A stretch of 64,000 nt of DNA from Climacium dendroides (lineage: Eukaryota; Streptophyta; Bryopsida; Hypnales; Climaciaceae), in NCBI GenBank assembly GCA_950106755.1, contig OX467084.1, positions 7,502,001-7,566,000 on the forward strand. The letters run 5' to 3'. Positions 18,401 through 62,071 of the stretch are shown in pieces. The first letter of the stretch is position 1. Each line of letters starts with the position of its first letter. A model generated the notes under the pieces. It was not told the DNA's origin, searched no databases, and saw nothing but the letters and a program-made list of their open reading frames with translations. Made by a program: the position numbers and the translations under genes.

Positions 18401-18544
18401 CGCAATAACCTCGAGGAGAACTTGCAAGTCGTGGTGGGGATGTTCTCTCAGAGGCTGTTTACACTGGATACCTTCCCTTACCAAAAGGTGTTTGACGACT
18501 GGTTCGTTACTGGAGGGCGGGGGAGATATTTGGCTTCAATTTAG
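15449..18544 (+). pseudogene. hAT transposase (KIAA1586/ZNF862-like), three lesions
   Basis: Likely exons are 15449-17218, 17425-17827 and 17941-18544. The start at 15449 (MESERAM) is preferred over an in-frame ATG at 15335. The N-terminus is Lys/Ala-rich and coiled-coil-like, then Ser/acidic linkers, then a CxxC zinc-finger-like patch (VKCKVCSV). Catalytic-core signs are LTVDEVT and FGADGAS (acidic residues), VHCMAHRCNL (CxxH) and TRWMS; the C-terminus has a typical hAT dimerisation block, EDERLFSSVGFLKSKLRNNL. Lesions: in-frame TAG at 16430-16432 between ATLF and LLTNGRPM, in-frame TGA at 17587-17589 between QASLY and MYED, and a net -1 (or +2) frameshift near 18206-18222. Coding resumes in register after each stop, so these are recent-looking single hits. 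Splice sites are inferred. Confidence 0.88.
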
Positions 18545-26793: not shown

Positions 26794-29700
26794 TTAGCTC
26801 TCTTCCAAGCATCGAGAACATCGACAGACAAAAGCATAGTCTGCAAGTCCAGCCCTCCTCTCTTCCAAAGTGGCATCCTCGTCAATATATGAGATAGTCA
26901 CCTGAATATAATGATGCACCACAGAGCACACATATAAGCTCCTCGCAGCATTTGAATGGCAGTATAGTGCACTAGTTTGGTCTCACGATAATAATCTTGA
27001 AAGGAACTGCAAACAACTGTTTATTCAAGGAAGAATCACGATATCTAAGATTCTACAGTTCTCTGATATCGTTTTTTGGCAGAAATTCTCACATCTAGAG
27101 TTCAATGAAGGTATTAATACCGTAATAGACAAGTGGAGTTTCTGCCAGAAACAATGCAGCTACAGTGAAAAAGGTGAGTGATTAACATTGCACTAGAATG
27201 CTAGGACTGATGACATACCTCTTCGCCTTTTCTAATCGGTCTTGTAGCAAGTAGCACTGCGTGTCCATCTCGATCCTGAGTACATGCACATCAAAAAATG
27301 GATCAATGATCGTATAATTTCATCGTGTCAGCGAGAAAGCTTTCACGTATTATGAGCTTGTAATCTGCATTATTCATAAATAGCAAAATATACTGCAATT
27401 AACCGATAGTAGTGATAGTGGTTGTTCACTTCATCTCGCTTGAACGCCTTGGCATTTGGCCGGCAAGAGTGATTCATGCAGCTTTGCAATGAATAAAAAC
27501 CTGACCCTGTAAGACAGATAAGTTGATAATCATTACATTTTTGCTGAGTACATTACATTACAGATGCCCGCGGCAAACTCAGACCAGATATTTGAAACAG
27601 AGACTTTAGTAAACTTAGACTGTTCCAGGAACTTTTAGACAGCATATTCAAGGCAAACTTCATCAAGATCTGTATGGTTCAAGTGATCATATGGAATCTT
27701 CCCTGCTTGTATGTTTCTATTCAAAATGAAATGAAAAGAAAACAGAATATAAATTAAGTCATGTTCTGGGCGCAAAATATTGGACTGGTGGAGGAAAGAG
27801 AACACACCCTGACAATAGGCGGCATAGTCATCACCTAAAGCATCCAAGAATGGTTTTGTATAAACTTCCGCCTCTGCCTGCAGGTCATCAACGTCAATCA
27901 ATTATCCGCATTCAATATGTTAAAGCAATCCAAGAAAACCCAAGAACGACCTCATACGATTATTATACCCAAACCCAACACCACACCTAAAACCAGCGCT
28001 ATGTACCAGTCATACATTTAGAGGTCTTAAATGTTTAAGAGTCATACATTGTGTTGCTTTTTAGTACGGTACTGGTTTCGGGTGTGCCTTCCTTAGATTG
28101 CTATCACAAGGATAACACGAAAAAAATAAAATAAATTATAAGCATAAATAACAACAAAAGAAAAGAAAAACAGCAAGAAGGGACGACCTTGGCAGCTGGA
28201 GGAAGGTCGTCGATGTACAGAAAATAGTCTTCAACAGATGACGCCACGACAATCTCCCTGAAAGAAAAAAGGTTTGGCTCTTTACAAGCACAATAAACCA
28301 ACAAGATAACTTTCAAACAGGAAGTCGAAAGCAAAACGTCTGCACGCATCATGTATGATCCAGAGAGAACCGATGTGAGGTAGAGAAACCTTTCCCATGC
28401 AGACCTTTTGCAGTGGGTAGGCAATGAATAGACAATAAGTGAGTTGCGCAACTAACAAGTACATATTCAGAATCTCGGGGATATGACAATATTCAATCGC
28501 TGAAGAGGCAAAGCCTACCCATGATTTTTCTCTACCTATGAGCAGCACTTTGAAAATTTACAAGTTATTCATATGATATCCAAATAATACGTATTCTAGT
28601 GCATTGAAATCCTTTCAAAAATAGAGACAAGACCACATTAAAAATTTCCATTCTAATAAGAGAAACCACTCAAACCAGCTGAAAGCCACGGGTTGTTCAC
28701 CGTATGAGCAAAATTAACGACAAGGGACTTGAGCATAATTGTAGAAGAAAAAGAGACTTACAAATTGTTCAACTCGAACATGCCAATTATATGTCCGTAC
28801 ACCTCTAAAGAGAATACTAAACAAGTGCACAAGTTAAGGAAGAGCCACTTCAAAGAAAACTTTTAGTACACAATCCGATGCAAACAGCATGCAGTTAAAA
28901 GTCCGTCTTAAAATAATAATACAATTTCTGATCACTATTAAGGCGACGTAAGAGATCATGATCGCCGCAACATCTAAGAAACTTTAGTAATGTCTTACTG
29001 TTTAGGTTTCTTGCAACAAAATGATAAAAGGGGATACAGGGTGCATAGCTGTCCTCATAAATCGCGCTTTTCAGTAAAGATAATGACTGCAACAGTAACA
29101 TTGCCATTCTGTTAATCGATACTCGCATCTTGAAAATTCACATTGGCTCAAGTGTTCTCTGATAAGGAAGACGAACGATTGAAAACACTCCATTTTCGTG
29201 ATTTGCTAGCATCACAATAATGTGATCAGCCTCGATGACCTGGAAGCATGCAACTCTATGAGGTATGCGGTGGAGTATTTTCCACACACAGCAGCTCAAG
29301 TGAATACCTGGGCTGCAATTTCTTTCATCTGTTCACGAAACTGTCGCTCATCAACTGGATCCACATCGGACGGCAGAGCTACTGTTTCCCACCACCTACA
29401 TATGAAAAATAAACCAAATTTTAGATCCTTAAAACCCTCATATGCTGTAGCATGAGCAATTCAGAACCCTAAATGCCCAAATACCCAAAGTAGCCGCTTC
29501 CATGTCTATATGAGTTGAAATAAATCATTTAGGAAGCTTCAGAGTAGCAAAATGTCCCAATAGTAAGGAGAAACCAAATCCTATATTTTGAACAATAGAT
29601 ATATGTTTGGAACGTTGCCATGATTGACCATTGGCTTCCAAAGTGGACTTTCTATTTTAGCTTGGGCACTTGGGGGGGGTGGAGGTGGGTAACTAATAAG

Positions 29701-32431
29701 TTTCTGGGATTCTAAGAAACGTAAGTCGCCATCAAAATTCCTTACTACAATCATGATTGTAGCCACGCTTACAGGAGTTTGAAGCCCATGGCAAAAGGCT
29801 CCCAGGCCCTTAGTAAAGTTGACTCGTGCTTGCCTCTGATAGTACTCTCAAGTTTCCGGGCTCTCAGCAGGGTTCCAGCAATGACCTGTTAAAGAAACTG
29901 ATGTGAGAAGTGAATTCTACAGGCTATTCAAATTTGAAAGAGTAATATTCACAAAATATACATAATTAGCCTTTTCGCGGGATACTGCACTAACACGAAA
30001 AAAGGGTTATTTCCTTGATGAAAGTATTTCTATGATGGGCAGATGTACCTGAGCGGCTATGTGAAAGACGTCATTTGTTTCTGTTGTCCATCCCAACACA
30101 AGAGCCACAATTATTTGCCGAGTCTTGCTTCATAAACGGCATAAGAAGGAAATCCTAGATTACGAATATCCTCAGACTAATATACATCTGAGTGCATTGC
30201 TGTGAAGTTACAGGAAGTACTAGAAAAGCAACCTCGCCAATAAAAGGCAATTATTTTCCATTTGCCCTGATAGACGTACAAATAATAATCAAGAAGTACT
30301 AGGACACAGCTTAAAGCTGAATTTCGATGAGTTTTTCACATTATTTCAAGATGCAAGATGAACAAAATAAGGCATACCATCCGCAAACTCCTTGAAGCTG
30401 ATCAAAGCATCAGTGTTCTTGCAATGTGAAGAAGGACCCGTGCAAAGTAAGCTGTGGTGCGCCGCCCAAGCTGCATCTGCACACGAATCGCTAGTATCCA
30501 ATAATCTAACATCAATTATCAAAACAATAAAAAATGAGGTAATGGGATTTCCATAAATCTCACAACTACAGATTCTTCTTCATCATTAAACCCCAAGCAT
30601 TTCCTGTTTTCTGTGATAGATCCATACAAAATTGGTTTGAAACAAGAATAGCAACCTGCAATAAACATCATCCAGGCAACCACCCTTGCACGTCACAACA
30701 CGAGGTAACGGAAATTGATTGCTGTAAGGAAGCACAAGGGTCCCGCTAGCAAGAGCAGCCCTTGCATCTGATGGAAGCGCTTTCTTCTTCTTAGAGTCTC
30801 CATTGCATCCGCAATGCTCGTCATCCTCATCCATGTCTTCTCCAGCTTCATCTCGCTCTTCGTTGTCCATGGAAGTCGCTGGTTCTCCATCGCTATCCAT
30901 AACATCGTCACTCGCAGTATCATCTGTGGCAGACAGGGTCGAAACTTACTGCCCAAAATGTCCTTTTCTAGCTTGGCTTCCAATTGCTCAAATGATCTTG
31001 TAACAATTATATCAAATGATCCTGTAGTTGATTTAAAAGGTTTCATCCTGAATTTCTTAAGAGGTTTCGTAGAGAGTCATAGAGATTTCTGAAGAACAGA
31101 TGTGAAAGCAACGAATTGCTATGAATCAATAGCAAGAAATTGAAAATTAAGAGTTCTGCAAAACCTTCTGATAAAGTTCCATCGTTTTGAAGAAGACGCC
31201 GTGTAAACTGCAGCTCAATGGAGCCGACATACCGAAAGCAGTGACTGCACACCATAGCGTCTCTCTGCTCCCAATTAAGTTTATAGTGTGAGTGCTTGTG
31301 TTTGGACCAAACTTGCCAAATTGTTAGAAGTGAAAAAAGTCATACGCACTTCTTTCTGCCTTATTATCTCATTCCACCTATATAACCATCAATATTACAG
31401 CCACTGTGGTTCTAACATGGTAATTAATCAAGCTAGAGGGCCTAGACGGCTGTCCACCCCCTTTCCCAAATTTCTTCATAATATTTCTGTGCAAAAATAG
31501 CTTGATAAATATTTAAGTTTGATGAGCAGTATTCAAAAGTCATGTCCAGTAAAGAATTCCGACGGATTAAAATATGTACCTTGTTGCGGGAGTGTTGAGC
31601 GCCTACAAGCGGCGCTTCTCGTAGTACTAACTCCTCAGAACTAAAATCTCTATCCGCAAAAACACCTGCGATCGGATCAACAACCAAACGAACCCAAGCA
31701 ATTACACTTCAGATCATTCACACCTGAAAAATGAACTGACAAATTGAGCTTAGTTATTGGAATCTCCATTCATAAACCCTAAACCCTAAAAATCCTGAAA
31801 GAACTTGCAATCCTCCGCACACTAGTTTTCTTCGTACAGAAGCAGAACCATTCTTAAATGTCTAACCGTACAGAACCTGCAACAAAATCGTCTCGCAAGC
31901 AAATTGCAACTTCTCGATTCACAAATAATTCCCACGCAGTTGCAAAATCCGTAATCTATGCCTGCAGGCGGCAGCCAGACTTCAATCAACACGGAAATTC
32001 ATACCCTTGCCCATATCGCCATCGATACCGCGTACTTGCAGACCAGGTCCCAAGCCCACCCTCGAAATCTCGGCATAATACTTCTGGAAACCAGGTCAAA
32101 AATTTTCAGTACAAATCTCTCTCTCCATTCCACAACCATGGCATTATCGAACACACCAAGTATACCTCCATTTCGCAAAGTATGAATATCCTCTCATTTC
32201 GTGAAATTTAACAGGGCAAAATTTACAAATGATTGAAACCTCCAGAAAAGAAACAAACTCGGTAGCTGCCACCACCATGGAACTCCAGTAATCCAAATTG
32301 AGGATCAGAACGGAATGTCGCATCCTCTGGAAGAAAATTAGGTCAAACCAAACCTGCATTTCTTGAGGTGCAGGGCGTTTCAGCAGCTGCTTTAAAATTG
32401 CATCGACAGCGCCGTCGCCTTCAACCTCCAT
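26794..32431 (-). CDS. ATXR2: ATXR2/SDG36-type SET-domain methyltransferase, 16 exons
   Basis: Exons (minus strand): 32431-32354, 32083-32005, 31665-31580, 31264-31165, 30923-30656, 30490-30378, 30080-30049, 29885-29773, 29395-29308, 29086-29038, 28816-28762, 28257-28188, 27877-27808, 27506-27430, 27275-27219, 26901-26794. All introns are GT-AG and reading phase is kept throughout, giving 480 residues plus TAA (Arabidopsis ATXR2 is about 470). The SET domain is split: GVFADRDF starts it near residue 53; a MYND-like zinc module follows (C87, C90, C193, C197, C203, C207, H216, C220). WW-containing and EVYGHIIGMFELNN blocks are next, then VEDYFLYIDDLP, the cofactor-binding N412-H413-S414 of MNHSCRPNAKAF, EEVTISYIDE with Y450, and post-SET C471, C473, C476. 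An Asp/Glu-rich loop (about 115-155) sits inside the MYND region. ATXR2 in Arabidopsis methylates H3K36 and works with LBD factors. No lesion is seen. Ortholog call by motif order; substrate is family knowledge. Confidence 0.96.
31774..31790 (+). repeat. Interstitial telomere-like repeat in ATXR2 intron 2
   Basis: AAACCCTAAACCCTAAA lies within the intron between exons 2 and 3. Two and a half plant-type telomere units; it may act as a telo-box enhancer or be a repair scar. Confidence 0.7.
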
Positions 32432-35587: not shown

Positions 35588-36065
35588 CCAATATTTTCTA
35601 GGTCATGACACAGCAGCGGACGGAAGTGGAGTGGGCACAGACGCTGACATGGCCAAGCTAGGGATAAGCTCCAAACCCTAAAACGCTTGAGCGGTAGGGG
35701 CGAGGGCCTGGTGCCTCCTTGCTCGTTCCCTTTCACCTCCGCTCCTGCTCATCTTCCTCATTTGCCCTTCCATCACTAACCCTCTTTTAGCTCACACTTC
35801 CTCTCGCTCTCTCGCTCTCTCTCGTGCTCTCCCTCCTTGCGTTCGTTTTTTTCTTTCCTTGGGTCGTCTTGTTTGTTGTGTTGCCCCGCTTCAGTCTCTT
35901 TCATGGGAGTGAGCTTGTTCCTGGGTCGCCATTCTTGGATTGGAGTTGCCCGGCCGCCGCTGCGATGGTGATGTGAGCTTTAGGTTCGACCGACTCCTGA
36001 GGGGATTTTGGTGGTAGGGACGTTTTCCACGGGGCGCGGATCAGGCATCCGAGGCGCGAGCAGCC
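35588..36065 (+). promoter_or_regulatory. Promoter and 5' UTR of left RGGA/HABP4-type copy
   Basis: Contains a telo-box (35673-35680), a CCAATATTTTCTAGGTCATG block at 35588, and a TC-rich tract (35801-35855) typical of plant core promoters. From 35847 it is identical to the right copy; before that it is only partly similar. Transcription start not determinable. Confidence 0.6.
35673..35680 (+). promoter_or_regulatory. Telo-box AAACCCTA, left RGGA promoter
   Basis: AAACCCTAAAA 393 bases before the left ATG. The equivalent motif is kept in the diverged right promoter at 53483-53490, which suggests constraint. Confidence 0.6.
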
Positions 36066-38386
36066 ATGGCCACGAAGAATTTCTTCGACTTGCTGGGGGA
36101 CGACGAGAACGAGGACCCGGCGCAGGTGGTGGTGCGCGCGAATTCGCTCGCCGCCGCGGACGCCAAGCCGGCTGCTGCCGCCGCCAACGCCGGGACGAAG
36201 AAGCCGGCCGCGGCGGCCGCCAAGCTGCCGTCCAAGCCCGCTCCGCCATCGGAGGCTGGTACGTGTGCGTGGGATTGGACGGGTCGGCCCCCCTTGCATT
36301 GGCTGGTTTTGGGTCCCTAGGTCGCGTCGCCATTGGCGTGGGAGCGTGTTGGGTGCGTAGGTTTTTGCGCATCGGGGAGCGCGTGGGTGGGCGTTGTGGC
36401 GTGTGGGGAGTGGGTGCGTGAGCGAGTGCGATTGTGCGTGTGGATTGCATGTTTGGATGGAGTTTGGTGCGCGCGGGGATTCGTGGCATTGCGTCTTGGG
36501 TGCAGTCGGCGATTGGTGTCGTCGTTGTCGGCGTGGGAGTGTGTTCTGACGGTGTTTTTGTGTTTGTTTCCTCGCTGTTTTGGTTTCAGTGCGAGATGGT
36601 CCGCGGGGTCAGTATGATGGCGCCCGTGGCGGCCGAGGTGGTGGTCGCGGAGGACGTGGCGGTCGCGGTGACCGGGAAGGAGGTGGCCCCCGTGAGGGAG
36701 GAGGTTATAGAGAACGCGGCAGCTACAACAACGACCGCAATGTCGGCAGCACTCGCGACGCGGACGGTTTCGTGGGAGGTCGCGGGTCGCATGGCGACAA
36801 GCCCGTGCGTATCGAGAACGGCGAAGGTCGGTCCTACGAGGGTGGTCGCAGCAGAGGAGGTCGCGGTCGCGGATACGGCGAAGGTGACGAGCGCCCACGC
36901 AGGCGCGAGTTCGATCGTCACAGCGGGAACCCTAGGGGGTGAGCTGCGGTCCCCTTTTTTGCGTTGTATGGATTTGCTGGGGTGCGTTGGGGTTCTTGGT
37001 TTATTGGCATTTGGTTTCCGTGTCTTGTGGATTTCTCTGACGTGCTGGGTGCCCTTCTTTTTTGTTTTTTCGTTTTCGGTGAGTGGAGTCCATTTCGGCC
37101 GCATTATCCTTGTGCTGAATGTCCGAGCTATTTTGCAGCAGGGCCTTGCATGAATGCGTGGCTGTGAATCGTATTTGAATTCCATTCTCTTACCTAGCGT
37201 CTTTCAGATATGAGACCGAAAAGAGAGCTGGTTCTGGCCGCGCTAACTGGGGAACGGACGTCGACCCAGCACTGATCCAGTAAGCCACATGGGGGGACCG
37301 ACTCTGGAGTTCTGTGCTGTGATGGCTTCGGCTTTTTTCTGTGTGGAGTTGTTCGTCTCGTTGCCTGCTGACCATGTCTCCTTGCGTTTGCAGGGAAACT
37401 GTCGAGGGCGTCAAGGAAGATGAGAAGCCCGCCGTGGAAGGAGCAGTGGTCGACGAGAAGAAGCCCGAGTCCGAGCCCTCCGCAGAGGTGGTGGTGGAGG
37501 AAGGCGCAGCGGAGAAGAAGGACGAGGAAGAGGAGGACAATGTGAGAGCTCTTTCTTCCTTCATGTTTGTCCGTCCCATGCGGGAGTTTGACGAGTCCGT
37601 GGTCTTGATGACGAGTCAGCGAGAGTTGACGTGAGGTGGTGCTTGTGAATGTGCGCAGGAGATGACTCTGGAAGAGTACGAGAAGGTATTGGAGGAGAAG
37701 CGCAAGAGCCTGGAAGCCGCCAAGGCCGCCGAGAGAAAGGTCGAGGTGGACAAGGCCTTCTCGAAGATGCAGCTGGTGGACAACAAGAAGCGGGACGAGG
37801 ACATCTTCATCAAGCTGGTGTGTGACCGACGGATTTTGTAGCTGAAGTTTTGTGTTCGATGCAAGTTGCTCGTTCGTGGTGAGAGGCCTGGATTGTGGAG
37901 GCGACGTTAACATCTGTGCTTGTGTTTGTGTGGTCTTCAGGGTCAGGACAAGGAGAAGGTGAAGAGGGAGGCCGCCGAAAGAGAGGAGAAGTCCCGAAAG
38001 GTAACGAGCGCACGGTGCATTGTTTAGGATTTTAGGGGTTGCTTGGTTTCGTGGTGTTTTTTGTCTTTTTCGAGAAGGAAGTGCGTGTGCTGAACTTGTT
38101 TCTTGTTGTGGTTGAGCAGCCCGTGAGCATCAACGAGTTCCTGAAGCCAGCCGAGGGTGAGAAGTACTACGGTCCTCCTTCGAACCGCGGGCGTGGAGGT
38201 CGCGGTGGCCGCGGCGATCGCCGTGAGGGTGGCGAGCGCCGCGAAGGTGGTGGTCGCGGAGACCGTGAGTCGAGCCGCGGCGGTTTTGGCGGCGGCAGGT
38301 TCGGCGGCCGCGGTGGCGCTGGTGGAGGTGCATCGGCGCCGAAGATCGAGGACCAAGCGCAGTTCCCAACTTTGGGAGGCAAGTGA
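36066..38386 (+). CDS. RGGA: RGGA/HABP4-type RNA-binding protein, left copy, 7 exons
   Basis: Exons 36066-36258, 36590-36938, 37208-37279, 37394-37541, 37659-37817, 37941-38000, 38120-38386; all GT-AG and in phase, 415 residues plus TGA. The N-terminus has the Stm1-type motif KNFFDLLGDDENEDP (4-18), then an Ala/Lys-rich linker, a first RGG/Gly-Arg box (about 72-160), the core signature TEKRAGSGRANWGTD (184-198), acidic KDEEEEDN, a helical charged MTLEEYEKVLEEKRK segment, VSINEFLKPAEGEKYYG, a second RGG box and a C-terminal AQFPTLGGK. HABP4/SERBP1/Stm1 proteins bind RNA and idle ribosomes; plant RGGA is linked to stress tolerance. The start is the only ATG fitting the family N-terminus. The gene is convergent with an identical copy on the other arm. 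Confidence 0.95.
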
Positions 38387-39896
38387 GCGAAGCTGGCCGA
38401 CGGTGTGGGGGAGGCAGCTGAGGATTTATGTGCAGGAAGACCCTCGGGGTATCTGCAGTAATGACAAGCTGCCTGGGTTTGTTTAGGAAGTGTTTTGTCG
38501 ATGTAACAAAGTGTAGTGTGGCAGGGTCCAGGAAGCTGCTGTTAGATCACTTTAATCCTCTGTTTCTTATTTTTCTGCTTTTCTGCCAATCTGCCAGAGC
38601 CTCGTGGGTGTGGTCGATGTGGATTTGCCAATCTTAATGAGAAACTCCCTTTAAATGGTTAATTGTTAAGACTTGGTGGTGGTCGGGAGAGTCGCATGGG
38701 GACGACGTGAAGGTTTTGAATCCGCGGCGGGGATGTAGTGTTCGTGTAGGACGCGAGGGTGAACGTGCCATGGTTATTAGGTCTGCTACTCCATATGGGG
38801 GATGGATCGGCCTGAATCGAGTCCCACTGCCATTTGTAGGGTTAAAGTGACGGTCTTGGATGTTGGTGTTTAGATGAGATCGACTTGACTCGATGGACTT
38901 GACCTGGACATCAGTGTTCGTTTTTGCTATCTTCATTTTGAGTGAAACGGTTAGGATATTTGAACACTTCTGTAGCACTTGAGCATCTATCTGGCACGTT
39001 TTTGAGAGTTTCGTGAGGAATGGGGACGGTGTGGTTGATCTGCTTGGATGCGTCGACGGTGGCCTCGAGGAGATTCTGGCGGAGGGCTTCTTGTCCTGGC
39101 CCCCGAGGAAGGTTTTGTAGCTTCAGGAGGCATATTCGTTCCCTTTTCTGAAGGCATCGAAGGGAACACGCTTCGGACAGTTCCTTGCACGACGAGAACC
39201 TAGTGAGTTGCGAATCGCGCAGCGGTGAAGGTGAATATCCATGATGATCATTGTTGATAGAGGTGGGTTGATGTAGCAGATACCGAGCATCCCATGCAGG
39301 AAAGTGCAGCAAATCTTTGGAGAGGGGTCTGGTATTGCTCGGCAGGTTCCTTGGTAACGTTCGGTATCGGGAAAGTAGATGCACGCGCTGGGATCTTCAG
39401 AAACGGCCTGGAATATTTGGGTACTTGATACAAAAAGAAAAGTACTGGGTTCCGATACCCCCTTGACATTTCGTAAGGTATGTGCACCACGTGAAATGTA
39501 CGGGTTTCAAGTGGTGATTGTGGTTGCGCATACTTTAGAATTCGTGCTGTCAATCATGGGCATCTGGGAAATGACACCGAAACCAAAATTTTCAGATTGA
39601 ATTAGCTGAATGAGTACGGGTCTTCTAGTCCTAAATTCATTTGGAGGGAGTGTTCCAAAAGTGTTTCAGTTCCATAATTTGTAAGGAATTTGGAGCCACA
39701 GCATGGGAGATATTGTTTCCGAGTGGGAAGGGGTGTGGATCAAGTTACGGTAGACTGACACCCCATTCCGGACGCCCACCCCATTCCTCTTCTGCTGCAG
39801 GCTTTGCTTTCGTTAGCATCGCGTTAACATGTGTGAAATCCCAGTGATGCTTGTCGTAAAGTCTTTGGAGATTTGGATAAAATGTCATTCTTAAAG

Positions 39897-40104
39897 AACA
39901 CAGTGTGCCGTTGCCACAGTCACAATAAAAGTAAAAGGTAATTTTCTAATTCCTAAAAACTTCAAAAATTGATAAACTTTCACACCATGAGTGGGAACAC
40001 CACAAAACAAAGCTTGTGCACCCCTCCTCGTGAAGAGCTTTTTGACAGTACCAAGAATGTGACTAGGGGATGCACGGTCCAAGAGATCTCAAACAAAACA
40101 AACA
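39897..40104 (-). repeat. Single-unit copy of the 150-bp repeat element (left arm)
   Basis: The minus strand reads GTTTGTTTTGTTTGAGATCTC, then CTTGGTACTGTCAAAAAGCTC, GAGGAGGGGTGCACAAGC, GTGTGAAAGTTTAT and ends near GTGGCAACGGCACAC. It matches the element at 61388-62071, which has four units between similar ends. Confidence 0.75.
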
Positions 40105-41501
40105 CTTAATGGATGGAATTGCATTGCAAGTTGTAAGTTGCTTACATCTTTGAGGAGTGGTTAGATCACTTTGGGAATCATATTATATCTATCTACCAAT
40201 ATCAAGGATTGGTGGCATATAATTCTTGATGGACATGCTTCCTAGGTGATGCTAAGCATAATGACAAAGGTTGGAGAAATGATCATAGATAGACCAACAC
40301 TTCTATCAATCACTAGCCATGCAATGCAACCACTAGATGTAAATGTGTTCAAGCCGTTGAAACATATGGTTCATTCAAAATAAAGATCAAGGGACATCAA
40401 AAATTGTACTTGTTAAAGGCATGTTTTCACCGAACTCCATGTACAAGCGGTTCTAAAACGCAATAGTGATAATTGTAGTTGTGATAGGATTTGTTTAGTG
40501 GAAATGTAGGTTCTATAATTCACAAGAAGTACATAATGCCGTTGTTCACATTTGTGGCGTTAATCAATTTCTGTTTTTTTTATGAAAAGTGCTAGCTAGG
40601 CAAATGACAAGATGGAAAGGAAGGGGGTTCACACCAACGGCTATTTTTTCCTTAGACTGAGCTTTACCCCCTTCTCTTGTGCTGCACATTGTATTAGATA
40701 CGTTCTCTAGCGTTTCACTGCCTTTCACTTCCGTCATCCTCTCCCACAATTTCTCTGTCTTGTTGCTCAAAGTTTTTGGCACAATTTATTGTTTCTTCAA
40801 GCAATTTTTTCAATCGGGAAGAGCTATAGCTTACTTTGCTTTTGGTTTCATAGCTTGTTTTTAGTAGAAACATTGCCAAAACTTTGAAGTTTGTAATGTT
40901 GCCATAGAATTGAACTATTGTTGTTTCGTAATCAAGCTTGACAATGGAGATTAGTAAACACCGCAAGTAAGACTTGCGAGATTTTCTCAAATCTTCATTT
41001 GGTAAGAGGGATGTGCTACAGTGATGAAGCTAAACTTTTCTGCCCCACCTCCACAACTTTGCACCTAACACTACACTTACAACTTTGCCAATTAGGACTC
41101 CACATAGGTTCAGGGGATAAAAACCACGGTTGATGTAAACAAGAACAACTCTAAACAATACAACCACCACTCTTTCCAAATCCTTAAGGCCAAGTGAGAA
41201 TTGGGCTTCACTAGTTAGAAAACCTTGAAGAAAGCATTATCAAAAAACAATGTCAAAGAGTGGCTTCTTAGGATTATAGGTAGTTGACTGTTTGATAGTG
41301 ATGCAAAATAAAATATCTCCTTCCTCGGCGTATTCATTCCTTTTGTGAGCAATGAATACGAATGTTGAAGTCAACATCTATGAACTTGATGGTACATATA
41401 ATGACTTCCTTATGCAACAACTCAACAAAGACAACGAGGAAGACTTGAAAAGAACTTTGGATCTTTATTTCTATTTGTGTGAATCAAGAGAATGACCTTA
41501 C

Positions 41502-41563
41502 AGAATAAAATAATAAGTATGATGATGTGAATAGAATAAAGTAATAAGTATGATGATGTGAAT
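41502..41563 (+). repeat. 31-bp tandem duplication (left arm)
   Basis: AGAATAAAATAATAAGTATG plus GATGATGTGAAT-type unit repeated twice with a single A/G difference. Mirrored at 47578-47639. Confidence 0.85.
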
Positions 41564-42701
41564 AGTCTGCAAGGCAACAATTTGTCAAGCCATGGACCAA
41601 TGCAAGGAAGCTATTTTTAAGCCTTAGGCAATGATAGGTTAGGCCAAGAGGTGAAAGGACAAGATAATAATTATATAAGAAGATTCTTGGAGCTACCTTG
41701 TATTGAAGCATTATCATTGTAGAAGACCAAGAGCACAAGCCATTCTAGACTTTTATTACCTCATCTGAGTGTAATTCCAATCTCCGTTAGAGAGCCTAAG
41801 ACAAGAAAGCATGCCACAAAATTAGAAGTAGAAAATAATAATCATTAGAGTAAATTCCTACAACAAAGTGTAAATTGGATTTGATATAGATGAAAGTTTC
41901 TTACAATCTGGGTCTACATAATAACATTGAAAATATCTATGAAAAAATCTTAATTTGGTCTAAAGAAAAACCTTTATGTCATGGTGCATAATTTACACTA
42001 AATTTAAAAATATTAGTGATAACAATTGAGATTATTTTCAAATATTTTTACATAGGCCATTGTAAATGTTTTTTGTTTTTGTTTTGTTTTTTTCTTTTTT
42101 TCTTTAAAAATTTGTTATGCTCAAGTAGATATTTGATTGAGGTGTAAATAAATTTCTTTATAGCTTGGAGATGGCCTTAGAACCATAATTCAAGAATAAG
42201 ATTTCTCTTAAAACCAATTTAGTATTTTCAATCATTCTCTACTTCTTTCTACTTACTATTTTTTTGCCTAAATGAAAACACAATTCCAAATGATCTGAAA
42301 TTTTTTTAGCATGTAGCCAACTTCCCTTGAAAAATGAATCCAACGAATCACTACAATTTTGGACATTTTTTCATATACAAATGTGACCTTGTGAAGTGTA
42401 GGTGCCCAATTTTTTGCAAGGCCCAAAATGGGGTTTTTGTCACTTCAAACACTAACATCTTGCAATCCACATGATGGAAATTTCTGAATTTTTTTCCACA
42501 TATCATGATAGAAAACTGTTGTACATGTTGTTTGAAATTTTTGTTAGTCACTGAATCATCACTCAAGGCTTACTCATGTTGAAAGACCTTCAATGCTTCA
42601 TTAAAAAAACATTCACTAATCACTTGCACTTGTCTTTCAATTCATCATGCATCACACTGCCTATGAAGCTACATTCAATATAGAAGCTACATTCAGTATT
42701 T

Positions 42702-43334
42702 TCATACAATGTGATATTACAGAAATAGAATAGCATTTTGCAATCATTTCTATAATATCACTTTTTACAAAAGGTGATATTATAGAAATAATATAGTTGT
42801 TGCAATTAAGGTGATATTAAAGAGGATCCATAGGATGATATTATAGAGGTAGCAAATCCGTTGCTTCTCTTAGCTTTACACTTCTGTGCACTTCTATGAT
42901 TTTGTGCTTTTGTGAGCTTTGAGCTTTAATGATTTCAATTTTCTATTGCTACTACCCAATGATTTTGAGAAATTTATTCAATTGATGGGATTTTGGATTT
43001 CACAACAATTAAGTTGTTCACAAAGTTTTTGAGATTTATAAGTTTTTCTTTTCAATTTTTCAATTTCGATTGCCATTTTTTGTAACAATGGAGTCAAATT
43101 TCTAATGATTCTAATGTATGTGTATCTTTTATAGTATTTACCGTTGCATATGTTTCATTCATCATTCAATAAATTTCTATTGTACATTTCAATATATACT
43201 TACTTATAAAAATATTATACAAAGATTTTAGTCATTTTTATGCGAAGATTTATTGAAATGTTTGGTCCTAATATATAAAAAGCCTTATAAAATTTTAATG
43301 ATGAATGTGTAGCATAGCAAGCACCAACTGCTAG
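42702..43334 (+). mobile_element. Helitron-like non-autonomous element, copy B
   Basis: Closely related to copy C (63243-63885) and more distantly to copy A (1715-2346). It includes a hairpin with a perfect 15-bp stem, TTTCTATAATATCAC (42747-42761) against 42774-42788, conserved in copy C. The 3' end is AGCAAGCACCAACTGCTAG followed by T. It begins about 20 bp from the inner end of the left palindrome arm. Confidence 0.6.
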
Positions 43335-44639
43335 TATCACTTTAAAAAACTAGGGTACATGTTGTGTGAAGTTTTTAATGAGAAATAATAAAAACTGCAT
43401 TCATAGGAAGTAGCTCAAAATTGGTACGTTGCCAAAAAACATAGTTTAAGCTTTGGAAGTTAATTTTGCCCTTGATTTCGGTTTTCATTTGTTGTTTTTA
43501 TGCTTTATGCATGTTATGTCCAATTCCAATTCCAATATGGACTTAAACATATATGCTTAATTATTATTTACATATAGTAGATACATTCATTGAAAAATTA
43601 TAATGTGATTTTCTTGGGTATAATTTTGTTGGCTTTATCTAGGATTTCATATCCGCACTCTTGCACCAAAATTCTTATTTGGTATGGGTGGATAATTGTT
43701 TATTTTGACGATTAGATCAATCAATCTTACAATGCCAAGTTTGCATACCATAAATTATGCTACACTACTACCACAACTATTCAATAGTATATCCACATGG
43801 CAAATATTTTAGACCATATGAAAAAACCATTTTGGTGTAACTTAAACCCAATATCACCTAAAGTTTAAACTATTATAAATAATAGTTGGACTTAAATTTC
43901 TAGAGGTAAGCTAAAAAATTGATACCGTTAGTCTTTGATCCCAAACTCTTCCGTGTTTGCTTGTGTATGTGAGGTTCATGGTTCACCATCTAGTTATGCA
44001 TCTTTTAGCTTCACTAAAAGTAGTGATGTTTCTACTTTACTTCCCATTTAACTTCAAAGGAAAACTACTACTTTGTTTTACTATAATTAGAAATCCAATC
44101 ACTGGAAGCTTTTACAAAAGTTTATACACTATTCTTCATCATTTCCATTTACCCAATAAGCTTGGAATGGAAGTATACCTAACTACAAATCTTTAATTGG
44201 ACATGGTCCAAACATAACCAAAAATTGTCATGTGTCATGAATAACCTTAATTTATGTACATTTCATAATACTTGAAAATTCTAGTTCCTTAGTTTGGACT
44301 AAATTAAGACTAGTTAACACTAAGGCTAGTCTCATTGCCCCTAATTTCTTCAAGGTTGTCCTACTTTGTTAGATATGCCCATGGGAAGCAAGAGCCCAAG
44401 ATAGAAATAGTATGATACTTTCCAAAGTATTGGTGTAAATCCAAGAAAAATTGTACCTAGGCCATATTTTTTATTATTAGATCATTAGATCCAACATTGT
44501 GAACTACAAAATCAATTAATCCCTAAAGGTTTTTGCTTATGTTATCACCAAAACTACTCCAAAACTATCATTTCTAGTACAAGTACCAAATTTTAGAATT
44601 AAAAAAATTTTGAACACATGTAAACATAGGATCTTGTAG

Positions 44640-44955
44640 TACGCTGATTTCAAAAAATGTAGAATAAATTTCAAAAATTTTCATCATGTGGATTGCAGGA
44701 TATTAGTGTGTGAAGTGACAAAATTCTATTTTTAGCCTTGCAAAAAACTGGGCACTTGCACTTCACAAGGTCACATTTGTATGAAAAAATGTCCACATGG
44801 TGGTTACTCTTCAAGAATCATTCTTCAAGGCATGTTGGCTACACGCTTGAAATATCTCAAATCATTTGGAATTGTACAACATATAGGAAAAATAATAAGT
44901 AGAAAGATGTAGAAAATGATTTAAATTACTAAATTGTTAAGAATTTAATTATGGA
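44640..44955 (+). repeat. Diverged third copy of inner-arm sequence
   Basis: Aligns directly with 46620-46935 of the right arm: shared blocks TTCATCATGTGGATTGCA / TCCATCATGTGGATTGCA, AAGTGACAAAA, CACTTCACAAGGTCACATTT, GTTGGCTACA and AATCATTTGGAATTGT / GATCATTTGGAATTGT. It differs by many substitutions and small indels, so it is far older than the arm homogenisation. Confidence 0.8.
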
Positions 44956-47577
44956 ATTGAAAAATGTCAATCTCAAAGATTGTAATAAAAAATCTACATC
45001 CAATATTTTTATTTTTTTTCAAAAGTATTGAAAGTTGAGTTAAATAAAGGACTTCAAAGTTTATTTTAGATCCCATAACTATCCGTAAACTAAAACTCTT
45101 CATGACTTTCATCTCATTAATCAAAATGGAATGATTTAAAACTTTCAATATATATATAAACTCAGAAAACTTATTTCTTAACCCCTAATGTCCCAAGGCC
45201 TCTTTTCTATCAAAAACCATTCAAAATTGCCATTTCTAAAGTATAAAGAAAAAAAATTAAGTTCTTTTTTGGCATATCTAACCATAGGATCTTGTTCTAA
45301 ACCAATATAAGAATTTGTGGAAGAACTTTTATAAACATTGACTATGTAGATTGCAAGACATTTGCATTTAAAGTGGAGGAAACAAGTTCTTTTGGACCTT
45401 GCTCAACTACATTTTTTGGCTCAATTGAACCTTCATAACTTATAATTTTTGCTCTACTGATTTTGAATTTCTAATTTTATATGATAAAAAATTGAGTTGA
45501 AAATCTTCAAAAAAAACCTCAAGAAAAACACAATTAGTTTTCAGACACTAATTATTTTTAAGTAGAAATATATTCAAGATTGAAGAAAAATCTAAATTGT
45601 TAATTACTCTATGATGGAAATGAAATACACTAATCTCCATAGTGAGATTATTCTAGCAAGAGATATTATGTTTGTGAAACTTTTGTTTTTGAAAAATTGC
45701 AAAAATTGAGGTTAAAAGTAAATCCTACAAATTATTTTTGTAAAAGATGTTTTGATTGCTCAAAAAAAAGTTTGTCCATAAATTTTACACTACAAATCCA
45801 AGTAGAATAAATCACAATCTTTTCATGTATAGTGGGGTACCAATCAGAATGGCGTTTTTGCATTCATAGGGAAGGAAATTTCACATCTTCCAAATTTGAC
45901 AACCTTTCAAGGGCTAAAAAATTGGACTTTGACCATGAGATTTTTGGGTATGACATAATCCTTAAGTTAATTACATGTGTGTCAAATTTCAAGGCCAAAA
46001 GATTTACAAAAAGAAAACGATATTTGAAATCTATCAACATATATATCCATGAGAAAAATTTCACTAATGCCAACTTCAATATCCTCCCATGGACTGAACT
46101 TTTTTTTCCTCCCTATGAAATTTTCGACATAAGACCAACCCCATGTTGATTACATGTCTAAAACATTTCAAATCCAAAAGATCCACATAAAAATAGGTAT
46201 TCAGTATCTACGAATAAGTGTAACTTTGTGAAATACTTTTAAAGACATATTGGAAATTTTGAAATTTCTTTGAGTTCTGATGTTTCCAAATTGATATTAT
46301 TCATATGATGCAATCTTTAAATATAAAAGCTTCTCAAGAAAAGTAGTGACATTCAAATCTAGATGTGTGCACTTGTCTCAATTAAAAGAATCCTCTTGCT
46401 TATTTGTTGTGTATCATACACACATGAACAAGATTTGTGTTGTGAATGATAATGCCTCAATATTGAATGTAGCTTCATAGGCAGTGTGATGCATGATGAA
46501 TTGAAAGACAAGTGCAAGTGATTAGTGAATGTTTTTTTAATGAAGCATTGAAGGTCTTTCAACATGAGTAAGCCTTGAGTGATGATTCAGTGACTAACAA
46601 AAATTTCAAACAACATGTACAACAGTTTTCTATCATGATATGTGGAAAAAAATTCAGAAATTTCCATCATGTGGATTGCAAGATGTTAGTGTTTGAAGTG
46701 ACAAAAACCCCATTTTGGGCCTTGCAAAAAATTGGGCACCTACACTTCACAAGGTCACATTTGTATATGAAAAAATGTCCAAAATTGTAGTGATTCGTTG
46801 GATTCATTTTTCAAGGGAAGTTGGCTACATGCTAAAAAAATTTCAGATCATTTGGAATTGTGTTTTCATTTAGGCAAAAAAATAGTAAGTAGAAAGAAGT
46901 AGAGAATGATTGAAAATACTAAATTGGTTTTAAGAGAAATCTTATTCTTGAATTATGGTTCTAAGGCCATCTCCAAGCTATAAAGAAATTTATTTACACC
47001 TCAATCAAATATCTACTTGAGCATAACAAATTTTTAAAGAAAAAAAGAAAAAAACAAAACAAAAACAAAAAACATTTACAATGGCCTATGTAAAAATATT
47101 TGAAAATAATCTCAATTGTTATCACTAATATTTTTAAATTTAGTGTAAATTATGCACCATGACATAAAGGTTTTTCTTTAGACCAAATTAAGATTTTTTC
47201 ATAGATATTTTCAATGTTATTATGTAGACCCAGATTGTAAGAAACTTTCATCTATATCAAATCCAATTTACACTTTGTTGTAGGAATTTACTCTAATGAT
47301 TATTATTTTCTACTTCTAATTTTGTGGCATGCTTTCTTGTCTTAGGCTCTCTAACGGAGATTGGAATTACACTCAGATGAGGTAATAAAAGTCTAGAATG
47401 GCTTGTGCTCTTGGTCTTCTACAATGATAATGCTTCAATACAAGGTAGCTCCAAGAATCTTCTTATATAATTATTATCTTGTCCTTTCACCTCTTGGCCT
47501 AACCTATCATTGCCTAAGGCTTAAAAATAGCTTCCTTGCATTGGTCCATGGCTTGACAAATTGTTGCCTTGCAGACT

Positions 47578-47639
47578 ATTCACATCATCATACTTATTAC
47601 TTTATTCTATTCACATCATCATACTTATTATTTTATTCT
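47578..47639 (-). repeat. 31-bp tandem duplication (right arm)
   Basis: Mirror of 41502-41563. Confidence 0.85.
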
Positions 47640-49036
47640 GTAAGGTCATTCTCTTGATTCACACAAATAGAAATAAAGATCCAAAGTTCTTTTCAAGTCT
47701 TCCTCGTTGTCTTTGTTGAGTTGTTGCATAAGGAAGTCATTATATGTACCATCAAGTTCATAGATGTTGACTTCAACATTCGTATTCATTGCTCACAAAA
47801 GGAATGAATACGCCGAGGAAGGAGATATTTTATTTTGCATCACTATCAAACAGTCAACTACCTATAATCCTAAGAAGCCACTCTTTGACATTGTTTTTTG
47901 ATAATGCTTTCTTCAAGGTTTTCTAACTAGTGAAGCCCAATTCTCACTTGGCCTTAAGGATTTGGAAAGAGTGGTGGTTGTATTGTTTAGAGTTGTTCTT
48001 GTTTACATCAACCGTGGTTTTTATCCCCTGAACCTATGTGGAGTCCTAATTGGCAAAGTTGTAAGTGTAGTGTTAGGTGCAAAGTTGTGGAGGTGGGGCA
48101 GAAAAGTTTAGCTTCATCACTGTAGCACATCCCTCTTACCAAATGAAGATTTGAGAAAATCTCGCAAGTCTTACTTGCGGTGTTTACTAATCTCCATTGT
48201 CAAGCTTGATTACGAAACAACAATAGTTCAATTCTATGGCAACATTACAAACTTCAAAGTTTTGGCAATGTTTCTACTAAAAACAAGCTATGAAACCAAA
48301 AGCAAAGTAAGCTATAGCTCTTCCCGATTGAAAAAATTGCTTGAAGAAACAATAAATTGTGCCAAAAACTTTGAGCAACAAGACAGAGAAATTGTGGGAG
48401 AGGATGACGGAAGTGAAAGGCAGTGAAACGCTAGAGAACGTATCTAATACAATGTGCAGCACAAGAGAAGGGGGTAAAGCTCAGTCTAAGGAAAAAATAG
48501 CCGTTGGTGTGAACCCCCTTCCTTTCCATCTTGTCATTTGCCTAGCTAGCACTTTTCATAAAAAAAACAGAAATTGATTAACGCCACAAATGTGAACAAC
48601 GGCATTATGTACTTCTTGTGAATTATAGAACCTACATTTCCACTAAACAAATCCTATCACAACTACAATTATCACTATTGCGTTTTAGAACCGCTTGTAC
48701 ATGGAGTTCGGTGAAAACATGCCTTTAACAAGTACAATTTTTGATGTCCCTTGATCTTTATTTTGAATGAACCATATGTTTCAACGGCTTGAACACATTT
48801 ACATCTAGTGGTTGCATTGCATGGCTAGTGATTGATAGAAGTGTTGGTCTATCTATGATCATTTCTCCAACCTTTGTCATTATGCTTAGCATCACCTAGG
48901 AAGCATGTCCATCAAGAATTATATGCCACCAATCCTTGATATTGGTAGATAGATATAATATGATTCCCAAAGTGATCTAACCACTCCTCAAAGATGTAAG
49001 CAACTTACAACTTGCAATGCAATTCCATCCATTAAG

Positions 49037-49244
49037 TGTTTGTTTTGTTTGAGATCTCTTGGACCGTGCATCCCCTAGTCACATTCTTGGTACTGTCAAA
49101 AAGCTCTTCACGAGGAGGGGTGCACAAGCTTTGTTTTGTGGTGTTCCCACTCATGGTGTGAAAGTTTATCAATTTTTGAAGTTTTTAGGAATTAGAAAAT
49201 TACCTTTTACTTTTATTGTGACTGTGGCAACGGCACACTGTGTT
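49037..49244 (+). repeat. Single-unit copy of the 150-bp repeat element (right arm)
   Basis: Mirror of the left-arm copy, here in the same orientation as the four-unit version at 61388-62071. Confidence 0.75.
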
Positions 49245-50754
49245 CTTTAAGAATGACATTTTATCCAAATCTCCAAAGACTTTACGACAAGCATCACTGG
49301 GATTTCACACATGTTAACGCGATGCTAACGAAAGCAAAGCCTGCAGCAGAAGAGGAATGGGGTGGGCGTCCGGAATGGGGTGTCAGTCTACCGTAACTTG
49401 ATCCACACCCCTTCCCACTCGGAAACAATATCTCCCATGCTGTGGCTCCAAATTCCTTACAAATTATGGAACTGAAACACTTTTGGAACACTCCCTCCAA
49501 ATGAATTTAGGACTAGAAGACCCGTACTCATTCAGCTAATTCAATCTGAAAATTTTGGTTTCGGTGTCATTTCCCAGATGCCCATGATTGACAGCACGAA
49601 TTCTAAAGTATGCGCAACCACAATCACCACTTGAAACCCGTACATTTCACGTGGTGCACATACCTTACGAAATGTCAAGGGGGTATCGGAACCCAGTACT
49701 TTTCTTTTTGTATCAAGTACCCAAATATTCCAGGCCGTTTCTGAAGATCCCAGCGCGTGCATCTACTTTCCCGATACCGAACGTTACCAAGGAACCTGCC
49801 GAGCAATACCAGACCCCTCTCCAAAGATTTGCTGCACTTTCCTGCATGGGATGCTCGGTATCTGCTACATCAACCCACCTCTATCAACAATGATCATCAT
49901 GGATATTCACCTTCACCGCTGCGCGATTCGCAACTCACTAGGTTCTCGTCGTGCAAGGAACTGTCCGAAGCGTGTTCCCTTCGATGCCTTCAGAAAAGGG
50001 AACGAATATGCCTCCTGAAGCTACAAAACCTTCCTCGGGGGCCAGGACAAGAAGCCCTCCGCCAGAATCTCCTCGAGGCCACCGTCGACGCATCCAAGCA
50101 GATCAACCACACCGTCCCCATTCCTCACGAAACTCTCAAAAACGTGCCAGATAGATGCTCAAGTGCTACAGAAGTGTTCAAATATCCTAACCGTTTCACT
50201 CAAAATGAAGATAGCAAAAACGAACACTGATGTCCAGGTCAAGTCCATCGAGTCAAGTCGATCTCATCTAAACACCAACATCCAAGACCGTCACTTTAAC
50301 CCTACAAATGGCAGTGGGACTCGATTCAGGCCGATCCATCCCCCATATGGAGTAGCAGACCTAATAACCATGGCACGTTCACCCTCGCGTCCTACACGAA
50401 CACTACATCCCCGCCGCGGATTCAAAACCTTCACGTCGTCCCCATGCGACTCTCCCGACCACCACCAAGTCTTAACAATTAACCATTTAAAGGGAGTTTC
50501 TCATTAAGATTGGCAAATCCACATCGACCACACCCACGAGGCTCTGGCAGATTGGCAGAAAAGCAGAAAAATAAGAAACAGAGGATTAAAGTGATCTAAC
50601 AGCAGCTTCCTGGACCCTGCCACACTACACTTTGTTACATCGACAAAACACTTCCTAAACAAACCCAGGCAGCTTGTCATTACTGCAGATACCCCGAGGG
50701 TCTTCCTGCACATAAATCCTCAGCTGCCTCCCCCACACCGTCGGCCAGCTTCGC

Positions 50755-53075
50755 TCACTTGCCTCCCAAAGTTGGGAACTGCGCTTGGTCCTCGATCTTC
50801 GGCGCCGATGCACCTCCACCAGCGCCACCGCGGCCGCCGAACCTGCCGCCGCCAAAACCGCCGCGGCTCGACTCACGGTCTCCGCGACCACCACCTTCGC
50901 GGCGCTCGCCACCCTCACGGCGATCGCCGCGGCCACCGCGACCTCCACGCCCGCGGTTCGAAGGAGGACCGTAGTACTTCTCACCCTCGGCTGGCTTCAG
51001 GAACTCGTTGATGCTCACGGGCTGCTCAACCACAACAAGAAACAAGTTCAGCACACGCACTTCCTTCTCGAAAAAGACAAAAAACACCACGAAACCAAGC
51101 AACCCCTAAAATCCTAAACAATGCACCGTGCGCTCGTTACCTTTCGGGACTTCTCCTCTCTTTCGGCGGCCTCCCTCTTCACCTTCTCCTTGTCCTGACC
51201 CTGAAGACCACACAAACACAAGCACAGATGTTAACGTCGCCTCCACAATCCAGGCCTCTCACCACGAACGAGCAACTTGCATCGAACACAAAACTTCAGC
51301 TACAAAATCCGTCGGTCACACACCAGCTTGATGAAGATGTCCTCGTCCCGCTTCTTGTTGTCCACCAGCTGCATCTTCGAGAAGGCCTTGTCCACCTCGA
51401 CCTTTCTCTCGGCGGCCTTGGCGGCTTCCAGGCTCTTGCGCTTCTCCTCCAATACCTTCTCGTACTCTTCCAGAGTCATCTCCTGCGCACATTCACAAGC
51501 ACCACCTCACGTCAACTCTCGCTGACTCGTCATCAAGACCACGGACTCGTCAAACTCCCGCATGGGACGGACAAACATGAAGGAAGAAAGAGCTCTCACA
51601 TTGTCCTCCTCTTCCTCGTCCTTCTTCTCCGCTGCGCCTTCCTCCACCACCACCTCTGCGGAGGGCTCGGACTCGGGCTTCTTCTCGTCGACCACTGCTC
51701 CTTCCACGGCGGGCTTCTCATCTTCCTTGACGCCCTCGACAGTTTCCCTGCAAACGCAAGGAGACATGGTCAGCAGGCAACGAGACGAACAACTCCACAC
51801 AGAAAAAAGCCGAAGCCATCACAGCACAGAACTCCAGAGTCGGTCCCCCCATGTGGCTTACTGGATCAGTGCTGGGTCGACGTCCGTTCCCCAGTTAGCG
51901 CGGCCAGAACCAGCTCTCTTTTCGGTCTCATATCTGAAAGACGCTAGGTAAGAGAATGGAATTCAAATACGATTCACAGCCACGCATTCATGCAAGGCCC
52001 TGCTGCAAAATAGCTCGGACATTCAGCACAAGGATAATGCGGCCGAAATGGACTCCACTCACCGAAAACGAAAAAACAAAAAAGAAGGGCACCCAGCACG
52101 TCAGAGAAATCCACAAGACACGGAAACCAAATGCCAATAAACCAAGAACCCCAACGCACCCCAGCAAATCCATACAACGCAAAAAAGGGGACCGCAGCTC
52201 ACCCCCTAGGGTTCCCGCTGTGACGATCGAACTCGCGCCTGCGTGGGCGCTCGTCACCTTCGCCGTATCCGCGACCGCGACCTCCTCTGCTGCGACCACC
52301 CTCGTAGGACCGACCTTCGCCGTTCTCGATACGCACGGGCTTGTCGCCATGCGACCCGCGACCTCCCACGAAACCGTCCGCGTCGCGAGTGCTGCCGACA
52401 TTGCGGTCGTTGTTGTAGCTGCCGCGTTCTCTATAACCTCCTCCCTCACGGGGGCCACCTCCTTCCCGGTCACCGCGACCGCCACGTCCTCCGCGACCAC
52501 CACCTCGGCCGCCACGGGCGCCATCATACTGACCCCGCGGACCATCTCGCACTGAAACCAAAACAGCGAGGAAACAAACACAAAAACACCGTCAGAACAC
52601 ACTCCCACGCCGACAACGACGACACCAATCGCCGACTGCACCCAAGACGCAATGCCACGAATCCCCGCGCGCACCAAACTCCATCCAAACATGCAATCCA
52701 CACGCACAATCGCACTCGCTCACGCACCCACTCCCCACACGCCACAACGCCCACCCACGCGCTCCCCGATGCGCAAAAACCTACGCACCCAACACGCTCC
52801 CACGCCAATGGCGACGCGACCTAGGGACCCAAAACCAGCCAATGCAAGGGGGGCCGACCCGTCCAATCCCACGCACACGTACCAGCCTCCGATGGCGGAG
52901 CGGGCTTGGACGGCAGCTTGGCGGCCGCCGCGGCCGGCTTCTTCGTCCCGGCGTTGGCGGCGGCAGCAGCCGGCTTGGCGTCCGCGGCGGCGAGCGAATT
53001 CGCGCGCACCACCACCTGCGCCGGGTCCTCGTTCTCGTCGTCCCCCAGCAAGTCGAAGAAATTCTTCGTGGCCAT
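50755..53075 (-). CDS. RGGA: RGGA/HABP4-type RNA-binding protein, right copy, 7 exons
   Basis: Exons (minus strand) 53075-52883, 52551-52203, 51933-51862, 51747-51600, 51482-51324, 51200-51141, 51021-50755. They encode the same 415-residue protein as the left copy, with identical frames also across introns. All domain signs are retained: FFDLLGDDENEDP, two RGG boxes, RAGSGRANWGTD, EFLKPAEGEKYYG and AQFPTLGGK. Introns and UTRs are identical too, so the two mRNAs cannot be told apart except upstream of about 53294. It faces the left copy tail to tail; the stop codons are 12.4 kb apart. Confidence 0.95.
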
Positions 53076-53554
53076 GGCTGCTCGCGCCTCGGATGCCTGA
53101 TCCGCGCCCCGTGGAAAACGTCCCTACCACCAAAATCCCCTCAGGAGTCGGTCGAACCTAAAGCTCACATCACCATCGCAGCGGCGGCCGGGCAACTCCA
53201 ATCCAAGAATGGCGACCCAGGAACAAGCTCACTCCCATGAAAGAGACTGAAGCGGGGCAACACAACAAACAAGACGACCCAAGGAAAGAAAAAACGAACG
53301 CAAGGAGGGGAGAGCACGAGAGAGCGAGAGAGCGAGAGGATGAGGGTTTGGGGTTGGGCAGTGGGGGGTATGAGCAAGGCAAGCTCGACGATGACGACCA
53401 GAGCTGGATTGGAAGGGGCTTACGAGGGAGGCTCGAGCTCTGTGCTTGCCTTGCCACCCCCCGATCCTGTCTCCAAACCTTTTAGGGTTTCCATCGTATC
53501 CCTAGCCTTGCCACGTCCTTCATCTGGTGCCGCGTCATGCCCTAGAAATATTGG
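53076..53554 (-). promoter_or_regulatory. Promoter and 5' UTR of right RGGA/HABP4-type copy
   Basis: Identical to the left promoter up to 53294, then diverged. Shared islands beyond that are the TC-rich tract, TTTTAGGGTTT (telo-box), TATCCCTAGC, and GTCATGCCCTAGAAATATTGG against the left copy's GTCATGACCTAGAAAATATTGG. The left has about 20 extra bases between the last two islands. No TATA box identified. Confidence 0.6.
53483..53490 (-). promoter_or_regulatory. Telo-box AAACCCTA, right RGGA promoter
   Basis: TAGGGTTT on the plus strand, AAACCCTA in gene sense, 415 bases before the right ATG. Counterpart of 35673-35680. Confidence 0.6.
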
Positions 53555-61387: not shown

Positions 61388-62071
61388 GGTTTGTTTTGTT
61401 TTGTTTGTCACGATGAGATCTCCTAAACTGTGCGTCCCGCGGTCGCATGCTTGGTACCGTCGGAAAGCCCTTTGTGAGGAGGGGTGTACCGGCTTGGTTT
61501 CGTGGCATTCGAACGTATGGTGTGAAAGTTGTGCATTTTTGAGTTATTTTTTGTTCTGAAAAATTAGAAAATTACTTTTATTTATATTTTGGTCATGATC
61601 TTGGTACCGTTGGAAAGCTCTCAGCAAGGAGGGGTGCATGAGCTTGATTTTGTGGCGTTCCGACTTACGGTGTGAAAGTTATTGAATTTTGAAGTATTTT
61701 TATGAACTAAATAATTAGAACATTAGTTTTACTTATATTTTGGTCACAATCTTGGTACTGTCGGAAAGCCCTTAGCGAGGAGGGGTGCACGAGCTTTGTT
61801 TTGTGGCATTTTGACTCACGGTGAGAAAGTTATGCATTTTCGAGTTGTTTTTTGTTCTAAAAAAATTAGAAAATTATTTTTTCTTATATTTTGGTCACAA
61901 TTTTGGTACTGTCAGAAAGCTCTCGGCAAGGAGGGGTGCACAGGCTTGGTTTTGTGGCATTCCGACTCACGATAAGAAAGTTATGGATTTTTGAGTTGTT
62001 TTTGGTTTTAAAAAGATTAGAAGATTACTTTTACTTTTGTTTTGATTGTGGCAATGCCACAGGGCACTCTA
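61388..62071 (+). repeat. Tandem array, ~150-bp unit, four copies
   Basis: Landmark (C/T)TTGGTACYGTYRGAAAGC recurs at 61450, 61600, 61751 and 61902, each followed by AGGAGGGGTG, a CTTGRTTT/GCTTTGTTTTGTGG stretch, GTGTGAAAGTT-like and ATTAGAAAATTA blocks. Ends are GTTTGTTTTGTTTTGTTTG and GTGGCAATGCCAC. The palindrome arms contain the same ends with one unit. No coding role is seen. Confidence 0.88.

Follow-up and report, generated by a model that had tools for sequence, protein, structure and literature searches.

A palindrome with identical RGGA gene arms and diverged outer promoters in the moss Climacium dendroides suggests gene conversion between inverted paralogues

The window analysed here is a stretch of 64,000 nucleotides from the moss Climacium dendroides (assembly GCA_950106755.1, contig OX467084.1, positions 7,502,001 to 7,566,000 of the forward strand), and all coordinates below count from its first base. 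Besides a pair of RGGA/HABP4-type genes, which sit in the arms of a large palindrome, we recognised an NTF2 gene (2916-3756) and an ATXR2-like SET gene (26794-32431). Among the best 120 of 521 protein matches, NTF2 was closest to an unnamed protein (96%), followed by named proteins from Physcomitrium (86%) and Ceratodon (83%). The ATXR2-like gene matched Ceratodon at 84 and 88%, Physcomitrium at 77% and Sphagnum at 66% (best 120 of 406). For the RGGA protein, the best named matches came from Ceratodon purpureus (65%) and Physcomitrium patens (65 and 64%) among the best 120 of 1025; the same 120 contained an unnamed protein matching at 74% over 61% of the length and did not contain the window's own RGGA protein. 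The best named matches of all three genes thus indicate that the window is of moss origin.

Several other elements were seen along the window. A series of long plus-strand open reading frames at 15326-18541 is presumably transposase-like (hAT-type); searched in five pieces, these frames matched no Pfam family above the cut-off. The 161-bp stretch at 7332-7491 matches its own reverse complement at 83% and is perhaps a short hairpin element. A tandem array with a 151-bp unit in 3.9 copies lies at 61450-62044, and pieces 77-82% like it occur in both palindrome arms (39904-40063 and 49078-49237). Scans of the window for tRNAs and Rfam families gave no match.

The initial annotation had described a full RGGA/HABP4-type gene in each arm, and our gene models bear this out. 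Splicing and translation placed copy 1 on the plus strand at 36066..38386, complete from start to stop, and copy 2 on the minus strand at 50755..53075. The two coding sequences are identical, each with 1248 nt in 7 exons and an intact reading frame of 415 amino acids. In Pfam searches the protein contained both Stm1_N (PF09598; 72 bits against a cut-off of 23) and HABP4_PAI-RBP1 (PF04774; 78.7 bits against a cut-off of 21.8), the domains that place the arm genes in the RGGA / HABP4-SERBP1-Stm1 family. The predicted product is an RGGA-type RNA-binding protein. The copies are convergent, with transcription directed at the spacer, and each arm includes about 4.3 kb of DNA 3' of the gene. Three minus-strand open reading frames in this downstream DNA of the left arm (38637-39506) matched no Pfam family above the cut-off. 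Therefore, the locus holds two nearby inverted copies of one gene, the arrangement expected of a gene-converted inverted paralogue pair.

Using BLAST of the window against itself, we recovered the inverted pair 35799-42695 / 53340-46443 with 99.87% identity over 6901 columns, 2 mismatches and 6 gap openings. We therefore define the left arm as 35799..42695 (plus) and the right arm as 46443..53340 (minus). Base-level alignment showed that 35847-42681 is the exact reverse complement of 46460-53294: 6835 bp each, with 0 differences, at a coordinate sum of 89141. Identity covers introns and noncoding DNA as well as exons. The giant palindrome reported in the initial annotation is thus present in the sequence, and so is the mirroring of its arms at a constant sum through introns and noncoding DNA. 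We regard chance as out of the question as the origin of such a match. The spacer (42696..46442) is 3747 bp long when measured from one aligned arm to the other and 3778 bp when only the identical parts of the arms are taken as its limits.

The arms differ only at their edges, namely in the outermost 48 bp and on the inner side past 42681 / 46460. The outermost 48 bp are CT-rich (35799..35846 on the plus strand in the left arm) and contain three indel events (CT, C and T). The arms had been called free of indels, which is true of 35847-42681, where the initial annotation had set the arm, but not of these 48 bp, and the latter likely represent the edge of a homogenised tract. With homopolymer runs defined as at least 6 A or T or at least 4 C or G, the identical core contains 56 runs, none of which differs between the arms, yet three indels fall in the 48 bp outside it. 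We count this in favour of conversion. Base composition changes along the arm, from 64% GC at the gene side down to 25-31% at the inner end; with this drop in view, we did not take raised GC as a sign of biased conversion. The RGGA introns have 52.9% GC; the values for the NTF2 intron and for two introns of the ATXR2-like gene are 40-41%.

At the inner side we found no mirror homology past the arms, with or without the dispersed repeat described below, as 8-78 of 100 shuffles reached the score in the 10 tests performed. This 645-bp repeat (42693..43337, plus) starts 11 bp past the identical part of the left arm and matches 63240-63883, in inverted orientation, at 84.5% over about 645 bp. A third piece of the family (1878-2090) is 74% like the second, and the ends of the family look Helitron-like. 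The spacer also holds old copies of another repeat. These diverged copies lie at 44608-46954 with spacings of 659, 663 and 1983 (about 3 x 661) bases, and one of them crosses from the spacer into the right arm at its inner end. The left arm has two copies of an 18-bp unit at its inner edge (42665-42699); this doubling was not seen at the right arm and is possibly filler from end joining. The inner edge fits either the inner end of a duplicated unit or an end-joined repair.

We then compared the DNA outside the two outer edges and identified two conserved blocks upstream of the RGGA genes. The first, which we call the promoter core, lies at 35646..35689 (plus) for copy 1 and at 53474..53517 (minus) for copy 2, with 35 of 44 positions identical. 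The second lies at 35588..35615 (plus) and 53528..53554 (minus), with 24 of 27 aligned positions identical and one gap. The blocks are collinear, with order and orientation conserved with respect to the gene they precede, and the cores end 109 and 133 bp away from the arms. Over 0-330 bp outside the arms, the alignment score was reached by none of 300 shuffles (best shuffle 37), and over 100-330 bp the score was 43 compared to at most 25 in 300 shuffles. The second block scores 34, less than the 37 of that best 0-330 bp shuffle. In an earlier test of the outer flanks, 1 of 200 shuffles reached the score with 150 bp, and none of 200 did so with 300, 500 or 800 bp. The promoter core was also recovered (38 bp, E 9e-4) when the 10-kb flanks were compared by BLAST.

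The homologous stretch is narrowly bounded. Alignment was no better than shuffles in the 0-130 bp adjoining the arm (68 of 300 reached the score), at 330-1000 bp (35 of 300) or at 1000-3000 bp (218 of 300). A lenient-gap alignment of the promoters scored 424.5; the best of 1000 shuffles scored 382.5, and the highest value in 816 comparisons with real segments from elsewhere in the window was 316.5. Control alignments with other promoters of the window scored 280 and 288 (NTF2) and 223 and 219.5 (ATXR2-like). Gaps are so frequent in this alignment (144 gap columns, with 192 of 239 aligned columns identical), and its best shuffle comes so close, that our claim of promoter homology leans on the two blocks rather than on it. 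With two genes as controls, there is still some chance that the blocks are a motif which many genes of this species share.

The change from diverged promoters to full arm identity takes place within little more than 100 bp. DNA just beyond the arms appears homologous but strongly diverged, and the two genes look as if they have old, separate promoters. The blocks themselves give no date, since function may have kept them and the homologous stretch is short. We judge the gene pair to be old because the DNA around the blocks, as opposed to the blocks, has lost alignability. A mobile-element origin of the arms was considered and set aside; in the alignment, homologous promoters rather than a target-site repeat adjoin the outer edges.

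Diverged homologous promoters stand directly outside identical arms, and therefore the copies appear to be old, with the arms apparently made identical later; the duplication would be older than the identity of its copies implies. We believe that an old pair of convergent RGGA paralogues was probably homogenised by gene conversion between the copies. This reading is favoured because the promoters outside the arms have diverged while 6835 bp within them show no difference, and the contrast suggests a recent replacement of one copy's sequence by that of the other. Gene conversion had been proposed in the initial annotation by analogy with sex chromosomes. The proposal gains strength from the strongly diverged homologous promoters, and its sex-chromosome part, discussed below, is not supported.

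In our model, a break in one copy would have been repaired from the other copy. The CT-rich leader, or a site close to it in the homologous 5' part, would have been the starting point of repair, with copying then passing through the gene and about 4 kb of downstream DNA. The tract would have run out where the duplicated unit ends on the inner side, or else have been closed by end joining. As an outcome, one protein would be made under two different promoters. A single conversion event of ~6.8 kb and many smaller tracts fit the data equally. More speculatively, and with less confidence than we place in conversion as such, this may be an autosomal inverted pair in which a single long conversion replaced one copy, entering by homologous recombination on the promoter side and closing by end joining on the inner side, so that one protein was kept under two independently evolving promoters. 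Gene-bearing palindromes would then be an ordinary product of moss DNA repair and not the mark of a sex chromosome. We offer this wider proposal tentatively and consider it doubtful as a whole.

An alternative is that assembly error made the arms identical, either as a fold-back or as a consensus collapse of two similar copies. A simple fold-back should show mirror symmetry running into the flanks or lack a unique spacer, but past the arms mirroring is absent both from the outer flanks and from the two ends of the spacer, and the palindrome is therefore no simple fold-back. Collapse could yield arms identical except within 48 bp of unique DNA, and it could have erased a few arm differences. 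However, it requires arms that were nearly identical beforehand, and the contrast with the promoters would stand. We consider assembly error unlikely as the source of the identity.

A single, very recent inverted duplication of the 6.9-kb gene segment could also account for what we see, in which case no conversion is needed and identity simply reflects youth. The absence of differences across 6835 bp agrees with this, as do the inner edges, where a new junction predicts no mirror homology beyond, and the lack of homology past 330 bp outside the arms. However, the promoter blocks of the first gene recur in diverged form outside the second arm, with order and orientation kept. Recent duplication fits this badly because a new copy at a random place would adjoin unrelated DNA, and we find the explanation improbable.

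The last alternative is that the locus is a palindrome of a moss U or V sex chromosome, in which arm-to-arm conversion protects a sex-linked gene. As in the palindromes of the human Y and willow W, the arms are inverted, carry genes and are >99% identical. Sex linkage is a fair question because every Ceratodon RGGA protein among the best 120 of 1025 matches has a U or V tag. There are three of these, two with V tags (KC19_VG184200 and KC19_VG071400) and one with a U tag (M758_UG120600), and their genes sit on records 110.5 and 112.2 Mb long. The part of PMC8000587 available to us gives more than 100 Mb for each of the U and V chromosomes of Ceratodon. We read the locus tags as chromosomes, and the two record lengths would fit U and V.

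However, the neighbouring genes point elsewhere. Among the matches listed, the best Ceratodon matches of NTF2 and the ATXR2-like gene carry chromosome 4 and 7 tags; thus, two of the three recognisable genes match autosomal Ceratodon tags and RGGA matches U/V. We also placed the window RGGA in a tree of 15 proteins, 5 of which lack an organism name; another, KC19_VG071400, drew a flag for its unusual composition. Within the moss clade, no terminal branch is shorter than that of the window protein (0.10). The Ceratodon purpureus RGGA proteins listed (P0001, P0005 and P0008), all U/V-tagged, have branches of 0.25-0.43. The groups tested were picked after the tree was seen, and the single Ceratodon copies tried were KC19_VG184200 and the U copy; pairing of the window RGGA with either was rejected (p 0.003 and 0.010, respectively). 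Grouping with the whole fork of three Ceratodon copies and one unnamed protein was not rejected (p 0.391), nor was grouping with the Physcomitrium pair and an unnamed protein (p 0.402). The analogy with sex chromosomes drawn in the initial annotation is thus not supported, given two neighbour genes that match autosomal tags and the rejected pairings, although the U/V tags of the three Ceratodon RGGA proteins leave it some chance. We regard a sex-chromosome palindrome as very unlikely, and an autosomal RGGA locus appears more likely, short of proof.

Near-identical gene-bearing palindromes are mostly discussed for sex chromosomes, and mosses are a plant group known for efficient homologous recombination. 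Among the titles and abstract openings listed from open-licence literature on palindromes, inverted duplicates and gene conversion in plants, none describes a structure of this kind from a moss. Conversion that keeps paralogues alike is an already known process, of which the moss palindrome is a striking new case. A clear autosomal-looking example, in which old promoters adjoin full identity, would document a very long conversion tract that arose in nature. The RGGA pair would also give a natural test of one protein driven by two promoters.

The palindromes of the willow W chromosome have a similar geometry. As given in the accessible part of PMC7023750, those of Salix purpurea have gene-bearing inverted arms with a few-kb spacer (W.P1), the arms are >99% alike on average, and conversion was inferred. 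In contrast, the willow arms are about 20 kb long and lie in the female-specific region of a sex chromosome, whereas the moss arms are 6.9 kb and sex linkage is not supported. The willow case was also shown with a second species, whereas the moss palindrome is known from one. In primate X palindromes, conversion likewise keeps the arms alike, and GC content of the arms is raised (PMC8981503, in the portion available). In the moss arm, high GC is instead confined to the gene-side part and is explained by the GC-rich gene.

Closer to the moss in ancestry, tandem genes of Physcomitrella are highly similar, suggesting gene conversion (PMC3045890, available in part, citing Lang et al. 2008). They belong to the plant cases of tandem or inverted paralogues that evolve in concert through gene conversion, which share with our locus adjacent paralogues that are more alike than their age suggests. 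Unlike in those tandem genes, the tract in Climacium spans introns and 4.3 kb of downstream DNA with no difference and stops at diverged promoters. No comparable tract, with full identity ending at diverged promoters, is described in the available text of PMC3045890. Gene targeting in Physcomitrella involves transformation with added DNA, whereas the palindrome is a natural locus whose event we infer. Even so, the part of PMC6521618 available to us describes targeting by homologous recombination at one end and apparent end joining at the other, and homology at one edge only, as in the palindrome, would fit the same combination of recombination and end joining.
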